Shown: piece after piece, positions 14,547 through 17,945 of the stretch
Numbering within the stretch: position 1 is the first letter of the stretch
Layout of the letters: the number at the start of each line of letters is the position of its first letter
Made by a program: the position numbers and the translations under genes
Notes under the pieces: model-generated
Seen by the model: the letters and a program-made list of their open reading frames with translations, nothing else
What the model was told of the DNA's origin: nothing
Databases searched by the model: none
DNA from: Deltaproteobacteria bacterium
GTDB lineage: Bacteria; Desulfobacterota; DSM-4660; Desulfatiglandales; HGW-15
Assembly: GCA_016932115.1 (NCBI GenBank)
Contig: JAFGDM010000062.1
Coordinates: 1-32,400 of the forward strand
DNA: 32,400 nucleotides
Direction: 5' to 3'

Positions 14547-15889
14547 GACCTTATATTTTCAGGGAATACGATATTCGGGGCAGATGCCCTGATGAGCTGG
14601 GGGAAGAGACGGCTTTTCTTCTGGGCCGGACGTTCGGCACCTATTTTCGGGAACGGGGGGCAAGGTCGGTTTCCTTGGGTAGAGATTGTCGACTCAGTTC
14701 TCCGATGCTGGCCGAAGCTCTCAGGGATGGGCTGCTCATTACGGGGACATCGGTGGTCGACCTGGGGATTATACCAACGCCTCTTCTTTACTTTTCACTC
14801 CATCACCTCAAGGTCGACGGCGGCGTACAAATCACCGGAAGCCATAATCCGCCTGAGTACAATGGATTCAAAATTTGCCTCGGCAAAGCCACTCTTTACG
14901 GGGAAGAGATCCAAAAACTTTTACATATCGCGGAATCGGGTGTTTTTTTCGAGGGGCGAGGGGAATTGGAAAGGAAGGAAATTTTGGAGCCCTACATGGA
15001 ACAGGTATCGGCGAGTGTCCATGTGGGCCCTATTCCAAGAAAGGTCGTCATCGATGCGGGAAACGGGGTGGGCGGCTTGGTTGCTCCGGAACTTTACCGA
15101 AGGATGGGTGTTCGGGTGGAAGAGCTTTTTTGCGAACCGGACGGGCGGTTTCCCAACCACCATCCTGATCCTACCATTTTGGAAAACCTGGACGGCCTCT
15201 CTAAAAAGGTCGCGTCGACCGACGCGGACCTAGGCATAGCATTCGACGGGGATGCAGACAGGATCGGAGTGATGGAAAGGGACGGGAAAATCATTTGGGG
15301 TGATCAGTTGATGATCCTTTTCTCCCGCCACATATTGAAAAAAAATCCGGGAGCGAAAATTATCGGCGAAGTCAAATGTTCCCAGACCCTTTATGACGAT
15401 ATTGAAAAACACGGTGGCCGTCCCATCATGTGGAAAGCAGGGCACTCGTTGATCAAGGGCAAGATGAAAGAAGAGGGGGCGTTGCTGGCAGGTGAAATGA
15501 GCGGGCACATCTTCTTCGCGGATCGCTACTATGGATTTGATGATGCTATTTATGCAGGCGCGCGCCTTTTGGAGATCCTGACCTCGGAGCAGAGGAGCAT
15601 TCGGGATCATTTGGCCGATGTTCCGGTTTTTGTGAGTACCTCTGAAATTCGCATCGATTGTGAGGAAGAAAAGAAATTCTTGGTGGTTTCCCGTTTGGTG
15701 GAGACCTTCAAGAAGGATTTTCAGGTTATTGATGTGGACGGTGCAAGGGTTCTTTTTGAAGGTGGGTGGGGACTTGTCAGAGCATCCAATACCCAGCCGG
15801 TTCTGGTGCTTCGCTTTGAGGCGGTTGATGAAAAAAGACTTCATGAAATTCGGGATTTCTTCATGGACAAGCTTGCAAAGGAACTATGA
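14543..15889 (+). CDS. Phosphomannomutase / phosphoglucomutase
   Basis: 448 residues of the alpha-D-phosphohexomutase family. It converts mannose 6-phosphate to mannose 1-phosphate, the substrate of the upstream enzyme, and members of this family often also act on glucose phosphates. The phosphoserine is Ser100 in TGSHNP (98-103), the magnesium loop is DGDADR (235-240), the sugar-binding loop is GEMSGHIFF, and the phosphate-binding loop is RASNTQP near the C-terminus. The start is a TTG that shares four bases with the preceding stop, with AAGGA about 11 bases before it. The next in-frame ATG would delete the conserved REYDIRG start, so TTG is preferred. It ends in a four-base overlap with rdgB. 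Confidence 0.93.
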   Translation: MRPYIFREYDIRGRCPDELGEETAFLLGRTFGTYFRERGARSVSLGRDCRLSSPMLAEALRDGLLITGTSVVDLGIIPTPLLYFSLHHLKVDGGVQITGSHNPPEYNGFKICLGKATLYGEEIQKLLHIAESGVFFEGRGELERKEILEPYMEQVSASVHVGPIPRKVVIDAGNGVGGLVAPELYRRMGVRVEELFCEPDGRFPNHHPDPTILENLDGLSKKVASTDADLGIAFDGDADRIGVMERDGKIIWGDQLMILFSRHILKKNPGAKIIGEVKCSQTLYDDIEKHGGRPIMWKAGHSLIKGKMKEEGALLAGEMSGHIFFADRYYGFDDAIYAGARLLEILTSEQRSIRDHLADVPVFVSTSEIRIDCEEEKKFLVVSRLVETFKKDFQVIDVDGARVLFEGGWGLVRASNTQPVLVLRFEAVDEKRLHEIRDFFMDKLAKEL

Positions 15890-16536
15890 TGAAAGACATG
15901 CAGCGCAGTTTGGATAGGCCACTGGTCCTGGCCACGCGAAATCCTGGTAAGATCTTGGAGTTTCGAAAACTTCTCTCCGGCTTTGATGTTGATATCAGGA
16001 GTCTTGATGAGTTCGGTCCTATCCCTCCCACCGTGGAAGACGGCGCTACATTCGAGGAGAACGCATACAAAAAGGCGCATTTTACGGCCAGGGTGCTCGG
16101 GCTTCCGGCCCTTGCCGATGACTCCGGCTTGGTGGTTCCTGCCTTAGAAGGAGATCCGGGCGTCAAGTCAGCCCGATATGCCGGCCCGGGAGCAGATGAT
16201 GTAAAGAATACCTTGAAACTTGTCAGAGCCATGGAGGAGGTGAAGGAGAGAAAGGCGGCGTTTGAGTGTGTGATCGCGGTTGCTGTTCCAAGAGGGCCCG
16301 CACTGATCTACGAGGGGAAATGCGAAGGTGAAATCGCCAAGGTTCCGGCAGGTGACCAGGGTTTTGGCTATGACCCAATTTTCTACTACCCACCCCTAAA
16401 GAAAACCTTTGCAGAGATGTCGTCAGATGAAAAAAACCTTGTGAGCCACAGGGGGAAAGCCATGGGAGAACTCCTGGAAGAATTCGGCAAGGTTTTGATA
16501 TGGCTGAGGCAGAGGCTCGCGGAAGAACCGGTTTAA
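15886..16536 (+). CDS. rdgB: RdgB/HAM1 family non-canonical purine NTP pyrophosphatase
   Basis: 216 residues. It hydrolyses ITP, XTP and dITP to monophosphates, keeping deaminated purines out of DNA and RNA. Motifs: ATRNPGK (16-22), TFEENAYKKA, the DDSGL acidic loop (78-82), GVKSARYAG (92-100), GFGYDPIF and SHRGKA near the C-terminus. It starts at ATGATG, overlapping the phosphomutase stop (ATGA), so it is coupled to the sugar-nucleotide genes although its job is unrelated. The stop is followed at once by the 111-bp inverted-repeat element. Confidence 0.95.
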   Translation: MMKDMQRSLDRPLVLATRNPGKILEFRKLLSGFDVDIRSLDEFGPIPPTVEDGATFEENAYKKAHFTARVLGLPALADDSGLVVPALEGDPGVKSARYAGPGADDVKNTLKLVRAMEEVKERKAAFECVIAVAVPRGPALIYEGKCEGEIAKVPAGDQGFGYDPIFYYPPLKKTFAEMSSDEKNLVSHRGKAMGELLEEFGKVLIWLRQRLAEEPV

Positions 16537-16548
16537 ACATTCAGGATC

Positions 16549-16659
16549 GCAACAATTTAGCTTTTTTCATGCTCCACCCCGAATACACTTCGTTTTTCAG
16601 TATTAAGAGAGACCCCCCATGCTTGATGCTTGCGATTTTTCAAACAGCTAAATTGTTAC
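16549..16659 (+). mobile_element. MITE-like element, copy A, with 8-bp target duplication
   Basis: The 111-bp element has 14-base terminal inverted repeats, GCAACAATTTAGCT at the left (16549-16562) and AGCTAAATTGTTAC at the right (16646-16659), which differ at one position. It is flanked by identical direct repeats TCAGGATC at 16541-16548 and 16660-16667, the expected trace of transposase-made insertion. It has no coding capacity. The inside carries the core shared with three other copies in this window (AGAGRGACCC, then ATGC). It sits 12 bases after the rdgB stop and just upstream of the selenoprotein promoter. A parent transposase is not in the window. Confidence 0.72.
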
Positions 16660-16708
16660 TCAGGATCTTTTTTCTTTTTGAATGAGTAGTTGACAGACTT
16701 TTCTTAAT

Positions 16709-16728
16709 GCATAGTTTTATGCTATAAT
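16709..16728 (+). promoter_or_regulatory. Extended -10 promoter of the selenoprotein gene with overlapping hairpin
   Basis: TGCTATAAT (16720-16728) is a perfect extended -10 (TGN followed by TATAAT). A TTGACA at 16690-16695 is 27 bases away, too far to be its -35 box. The 14 bases just before the -10 are an inverted repeat, GCATA-gttt-TATGC (16709-16722), which may be an operator. The predicted 5' leader is about 28 bases and contains the AAGGAGG at 16751-16757. Confidence 0.55.
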
Positions 16729-16762
16729 TTAAGGCATAACCATTTCTAAGAAGGAGGCTGAG

Positions 16763-17074
16763 ATGTTTGATGTAACAACCAAAGCGGATCAGATGATCCA
16801 GGAATTCTTCAAGGGCAAGGATGATAAACGAATAATAAGGATTTTTTTATCTCAAGGCGGGTGATCCGGGCCCTCTCTGGGCATGGCTCTGGATGAGCCT
16901 AAGGATGATGACGAACTCATGGATAACAATGGGATTACGTACCTGATAAACAAACAGCTTTTAGAGCAGGTAAAGCCGGTGACCGTTGATTTTGTTGAGT
17001 CGGGTTATGGGTCCGGCTTCTCCATTTCCTCAAATCTCATAAAAGGAAATTCCTGCGGAAGCTGCTCCTGTTAA
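16763..17074 (+). CDS. HesB/IscA-like selenoprotein (Sec at codon 34)
   Basis: A 103-residue reading frame from ATG 16763 contains one in-frame TGA at 16862-16864 and ends at TAA. The frame is the same on both sides. The protein reads RIFLSQGG-U-SGPSLGMALDEP, where the selenocysteine takes the place of the conserved Cys of the IscA/HesB family. The C-terminus ends CGSCSC with three cysteines. HesB-like selenoproteins with Sec at this place are known in Desulfobacterota. The AAGGAGG site lies 5 bases before the ATG, the promoter is clear, and a hairpin follows the TGA directly. Ordinary gene callers would report only a 63-residue tail from the ATG at 16883. The function is unknown; iron-sulfur or redox chemistry is inferred. 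A true nonsense mutation is unlikely given the intact frame. Confidence 0.88.
16862..16894 (+). promoter_or_regulatory. Putative bacterial SECIS element
   Basis: The UGA is followed directly by a foldable segment. Bases 16864-16870 pair with 16888-16894 (A-T, T-A, C-G, C-G, G-T, G-C, G-T), and 16872-16873 pair with 16885-16886. An alternative apical stem is GCCC (16870-16873) with GGGC (16879-16882) around the loop TCTCT. Position directly downstream of the UGA fits bacterial SelB recognition. The fold was done by hand. Confidence 0.6.
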
Positions 17075-17083
17075 AAATGATAG

Positions 17084-17126
17084 GATCGCAGTACCTGTTA
17101 TTAAGCAAGGGCTGCGATCTTTTTTT
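17084..17126 (+). terminator. Rho-independent terminator of the selenoprotein gene
   Basis: The perfect 8-bp stem GATCGCAG (17084-17091) / CTGCGATC (17112-17119) has a 20-base loop and is followed by seven T residues. It lies 10 bases after the selenoprotein stop. Confidence 0.8.
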
Positions 17127-17146
17127 CCCAAAGAGTGTTCAGCTGT

Positions 17147-17291: not shown

Positions 17292-17945
17292 TTGATCCGG
17301 GACAGAGTAAGGGAGCTTCTGAGTGAATTGCCGCCGGGCGTAACGCTTGTGGGAGCGGCAAAGACTCGCACGCCTGAGGAGATTTTCGAGGCGATAGACG
17401 CGGGTTTGGAAATTGTCGGGGAAAACTATGTTCAGGAAGCGGAGAGAGCGTATCATCTTATCGGGAACCGGGTTCGATGGCACATGATCGGGCATTTGCA
17501 GACCAACAAGACAAAAAAGGCGGCCATGGTTTTTGACATGGTTGAGACCGTCGGCTCCGTGAAACTTGCCCTCGAGCTTGACAAGGTTTGCGGGAATATG
17601 AAAAAGATCATGCCGATCCTTATTGAAATCAATAGCGGCGAGGAGGAGCAGAAGTCGGGCGTTATGCCTGAAAATGCAACTTTTTTGATCGATCAAATAA
17701 GACATCTCCGGCACATCAGGGTCATGGGTCTGATGACGATGGGGCCCTTTGAAGGAAACCCCGAAGATTCCAGGCGTTATTTTAAGAAAACGAGAGAGAT
17801 TTTCGACGGGATCAAGGCAATGGACCTTCCCGACGTGGAGATGCGGTATCTCAGCATGGGCATGTCCAATTCCTATAAAGTGGCCTTAGAGGAGGGTGCA
17901 AATCTTATTCGCATTGGAACAAAGTTGTTCGGAGAAAGGACGTAA
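17292..17945 (+). CDS. yggS: YggS family pyridoxal phosphate homeostasis protein
   Basis: 217 residues, a PLP-binding alanine-racemase-like barrel without the second domain. It buffers free PLP and influences amino-acid metabolism. The PLP lysine is Lys24 in LVGAAKTRTPEEI, followed by IVGENYVQEA, WHMIGHLQTNK, the GLMTMGP segment, LSMGMSNSYKVALEEGANLIRIGT and LFGER. The start is a TTG at 17292, with GGAGG 7 bases upstream. An ATG at 17285 is out of frame. The gene stands alone between the tandem terminators and a 150-base gap before the TtcA-like gene. Confidence 0.93.
   Translation: MIRDRVRELLSELPPGVTLVGAAKTRTPEEIFEAIDAGLEIVGENYVQEAERAYHLIGNRVRWHMIGHLQTNKTKKAAMVFDMVETVGSVKLALELDKVCGNMKKIMPILIEINSGEEEQKSGVMPENATFLIDQIRHLRHIRVMGLMTMGPFEGNPEDSRRYFKKTREIFDGIKAMDLPDVEMRYLSMGMSNSYKVALEEGANLIRIGTKLFGERT

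Follow-up and report, generated by a model that had tools for sequence, protein, structure and literature searches.

The locus studied here lies on the forward strand of the window, that is, the whole stretch of 32,400 nt that was analyzed, and comprises a short gene, predicted to encode a selenoprotein, together with its flanking signals and two neighbors:

15886..16536, + strand: upstream neighbor rdgB (XTP/dITP diphosphatase), a conserved neighbor among relatives
16720..16728, + strand: extended −10 promoter-like motif TGCTATAAT, read from the sequence and absent from the output of the sigma-70 scan, so weak
16751..16757, + strand: Shine-Dalgarno sequence AAGGAGG, with a 5-nt spacer to the ATG at 16763 (a similar GGAGG precedes the starts of most homologues)
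16763..17074, + strand: predicted gene for a HesB-like selenoprotein of 103 residues, Sec at residue 34, ending in TAA (frame, profile matches, and homologues)
16862..16864, + strand: UGA codon 34, predicted Sec (TGA column shared with homologous loci)
16885..16899, + strand: candidate apical stem-loop of a bacterial SECIS element, GGCUC-UGGAU-GAGCC, with the UGA 25 nt ahead of its loop (synonymous shuffle test)
17082..17128, + strand: intrinsic terminator, arms GATCGCAG / CTGCGATC and then a run of T (folding)
17292..17945, + strand: downstream neighbor, a YggS-family PLP protein, a conserved neighbor among relatives

Positions 16763 to 17074 hold 103 sense codons and a TAA (17072 to 17074), with a TGA at codon 34 as the sole interruption. 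This is the frame that the initial annotation had read from the sequence, and both its translation and the ideal AAGGAGG in front of its ATG agree with that reading; conventional ORF calling does indeed give only a 63-residue tail, the single ORF of at least 60 amino acids in the same frame and stretch (16883 to 17074). The further claim that standard annotation would truncate the gene holds for plain ORF calling, which here splits a HesB-like selenoprotein gene, but an up-to-date pipeline may call the gene correctly because NCBI family models exist for it (NF038090 and TIGR01911). The open frame by itself says little, since chance alone often produces frames of 100 or more codons interrupted by one TGA (the window has 31 such stretches bounded by TAA or TAG), and that the gene is real follows instead from homology, TGA conservation, and the SECIS element. 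The conventional call could also be taken at face value, as one of two short genes: a leader of 33 residues that stops at the UGA and, from 16883, a protein of 63 residues. Such a split would fall inside one conserved domain, which is matched over residues 1 to 100, and homologues with Cys at this position are continuous, which rules out an arrangement that we consider extremely improbable.

Translated through the UGA as a single 103-residue protein, the product matches the NCBIfam model NF038090 (IscA_HesB_Se) with 122.4 bits (cut-off, 85) over profile positions 1 to 101 of 101; it also exceeds the gathering score of PF01521, the Pfam domain of A-type Fe-S carriers (39.3 versus 26.3 bits), and passes the cut-off of TIGR00049. 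The gene is thus an added member of the HesB-like selenoprotein family, which the literature already describes and for which NCBI maintains dedicated models. A 2006 list of 25 bacterial selenoprotein families includes it, with members in Syntrophobacter, Syntrophus, and Desulfovibrio, among sulfate-reducing and syntrophic Deltaproteobacteria (PMC1794560), and it appears in current reviews with the motif UxGP (PMC13188914). The in-frame UGA sits in just this motif (GG-U-SGPSLG), at the position of the conserved Cys, in keeping with the earlier statement that known HesB-like selenoproteins carry Sec there. In the solved A-type carriers 2apn, 1nwb, 1r94, and 2d2a, the residue opposite position 34 is the cysteine of GGCSG, and eight homologues have Cys at this position, so the TGA had been correctly placed at the conserved Cys of IscA/HesB proteins.

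With the members of NF038090, the protein shares a full-length match and a Sec in the family's U-x-GP motif (PMC13188914), and we found no feature that separates it from them. It differs in its relation to TIGR01911 (HesB_rel_seleno), the model that reviews name for this family, against which it scores below threshold (49.5 bits; cut-off, 66.35). The likeness to IscA, SufA, and ErpA lies in the domain (PF01521; PDB 1r94, 2d2a, and 2apn) and in the location of Sec34, which corresponds to the first ligand cysteine. In contrast to these carriers, the predicted Sec replaces Cys and is followed by SGPSLGMALDEP, with a CGSCSC tail in addition, and the scores stay well below the cut-offs of all three equivalogs (37.8 versus 150.6 bits for IscA, 48 versus 136.2 for SufA, and 41.6 versus 117 for ErpA).

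To place the UGA in an evolutionary frame, we searched 85 genomes of the order, 56 of which gave matches, and aligned 71 loci drawn from this search, from extra regions, and from one scan of named genome contigs; the added loci bring in metagenome-assembled genomes (MAGs) labeled Desulfatiglandales, Deltaproteobacteria, Desulfobulbaceae, Desulfovibrio, and Myxococcales. The column of residue 34 contains TGA in 63 of the 71 loci, Cys in the other 8, and no other residue, the 71 loci being not fully independent because three of the named ones (L049 to L051) duplicate numbered loci; the distinct UGA segments number 58. The alignment is continuous across the UGA, as the initial annotation had proposed to check, and a second UGA occurs in none of the 71 loci. 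Across the phylum, 57 of 148 genomes score above the NF038090 cut-off, in most cases with a single TGA inside. Several phylum genomes also harbor tandem HesB-like pairs, one gene with and one without an in-frame TGA, side by side:

G198:C28:21832-22599, tandem TGA/non-TGA pair
G170:C1:406362-407344, tandem TGA/non-TGA pair
G098:C1:2212589-2213333, tandem TGA/non-TGA pair
G099:C1:3107363-3108133, tandem TGA/non-TGA pair
G123:C6, G158:C1, G190:C19, and G218:C40, further tandem TGA/non-TGA pairs

Downstream of the UGA, the stem-loop GGCUC-UGGAU-GAGCC has a small apical loop containing a G, the features that we took as the mark of a bacterial SECIS element, as in PMC1088965. Because the same stretch encodes the conserved residues MALDEP, synonymous codon shuffling was chosen as the control. 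All five stem pairs are present in 55 of the 58 distinct UGA loci and in none of the eight Cys loci, compared to a mean of 5.3 loci (maximum, 12) in 500 synonymous shuffles, a comparison that takes no account of how closely the loci are related. That the Cys loci lack the stem meets this concern in part, as does a compensatory change in one UGA locus (L071), where a C-G pair has become U-A and the stem reads GGUUC...GAACC. Codon choice is similarly narrow: the Ala codon is GCU in 57 of the 58 UGA loci (GUU in the remaining one), and GCU ranks third in the Ala usage of the pool. Folded without constraint, the 51 nt that follow the UGA in the window reach a z score of only −1.5 relative to dinucleotide shuffles, and in about a third of the UGA loci the unconstrained minimum-energy fold favors an alternative hairpin; since the free fold often prefers this hairpin, we base the SECIS assignment on the test of the named stem. 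The conservation of the stem-loop beyond its coding constraint points to selection on an RNA structure tied to the UGA.

A trivial origin of the TGA would be a pseudogene or a sequencing error, with the Cys codon of a normal iscA/hesB gene mutated or misread, for which a single substitution (TGC or TGT to TGA) would suffice. This reading would have to account for 62 further loci, spread over different genera and families, that carry a TGA in the same column and for the five stem pairs kept by 55 of 58 UGA loci, in a frame that is intact and has both a ribosome-binding site and a terminator. Given the TGA conservation, which rules it out, we assign it hardly any probability.

Decoding of the UGA as Sec would need the corresponding machinery, and profile searches by family found all four components that the initial annotation had proposed to look for in the same genome (323 contigs, 95% complete): selA (510 bits), selB (389 bits), selC, the tRNA-Sec gene (74.9 bits against a cut-off of 47, with the anticodon UCA in CUUCAAA), and selD (371 bits), which has its own in-frame UGA in GSGUASK. 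There is a small chance, given how fragmented the genome is, that a binning error misplaced the contigs carrying the sel genes. The selD gene (L016:1456-2529; G000:C48) is itself a selenoprotein gene (GSGUASKL) that conventional ORF calling would truncate. A second match to the selD profile (L017; G000:C127:11325-12116), at 87 bits and below the cut-off, lies in a frame of 379 residues when TGA is read as U. Since the TGA codons of this frame all precede MSKFSLDVL, the likely start, it is probably an ordinary AIR-synthase/HypE-like protein and not a selenoprotein.

An open frame over a TGA does not itself name the residue inserted, which could be another amino acid, e.g., Trp, through a reassignment like that of code 4 or through near-cognate readthrough. 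However, TGA is an ordinary stop in the window, where it terminates 6 of the 22 ORFs checked, the alternative residue in the column is always Cys and never Trp, and both a SECIS element and the full Sec machinery are present; we reject code reassignment on these grounds, and a residue other than Sec seems to us most implausible.

Taken together, the equivalence of UGA and Cys, the SECIS element, and the complete Sec machinery support the selenoprotein reading made initially, and the gene at 16763 to 17074 almost certainly encodes a 103-residue HesB-like selenoprotein with the fold of an A-type carrier and UGA codon 34 decoded as Sec. Codon 34 would be decoded by SelB and tRNA-Sec, guided by the SECIS hairpin, which places its apical loop 25 nt past this codon; that Sec is actually inserted in this organism we infer from the sequence. 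A-type carriers hold iron or an Fe-S cluster with three cysteines; Sec34 would take the place of the first of these, and the remaining ligands would come from the CGSCSC tail at the C terminus. A role in the binding and transfer of iron or an Fe-S cluster is suggested more tentatively. In Methanococcus maripaludis, mutagenesis and 75Se labeling led to the identification of an archaeal HesB-like selenoprotein, whose disruption mutant fixed nitrogen normally (PMC11097638). The present gene adds to the family a well-supported member from Desulfobacterota, with a quantified SECIS element.

No Cys-containing A-type carrier was detected in a six-frame PF01521 search of the whole 95%-complete genome, which returned the HesB-like gene alone. 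One could speculate, although we think it rather unlikely, that this organism relies on the selenoprotein as its only A-type Fe-S carrier, with no Cys backup, and that the same may be true of many others in its order. If so, Fe-S cluster delivery itself would be selenium dependent, and these anaerobes would offer a clean system for studying the role of selenium in Fe-S assembly.

In most relatives' loci that are sufficiently long, rdgB and/or yggS adjoins the gene, and this recurrence indicates a stable chromosomal gene. From its ribosome-binding site, the upstream intergenic region, and the terminator, the gene is probably its own transcription unit. The strong terminator described initially does fold well (hairpin at about 17082 to 17121 plus U run; −20.5 kcal/mol; z score, −5.3), though it is missing from the list of the consensus scanner. 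The extended −10 promoter fared less well: the motif TGCTATAAT is present, but the sigma-70 consensus scan reported no promoter near the gene, and it stays a motif only. A TTGACA at 16690 to 16695 does not form a normal −35/−10 pair with it, because the gap of 27 nt is too long. An Rfam scan of the whole window returned a tRNA and nothing else.

Just upstream of the HesB-like gene lies a dispersed repeat of about 100 nt (16551 to 16657; query, 16536 to 16665), with 16-nt inverted ends that are 94% complementary and 75 nt apart. About 40 copies occur in the genome, most of them 89 to 95% identical and many close to contig ends; for roughly a dozen, a second, diverged copy lies some 75 to 150 nt away in the opposite orientation. 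The repeat resembles a miniature mobile element, or else the termini of a larger element, and seems to break the assembly. Elsewhere in the window, two adjacent minus-strand genes resemble a LipS2-type lipoyl synthase (209 to 1273; 214.8 bits, below the cut-off of 270) and a lipoate-protein ligase (1403 to 2476; 153 bits, below the cut-off of 280), and they are perhaps a diverged lipoate assembly pair.
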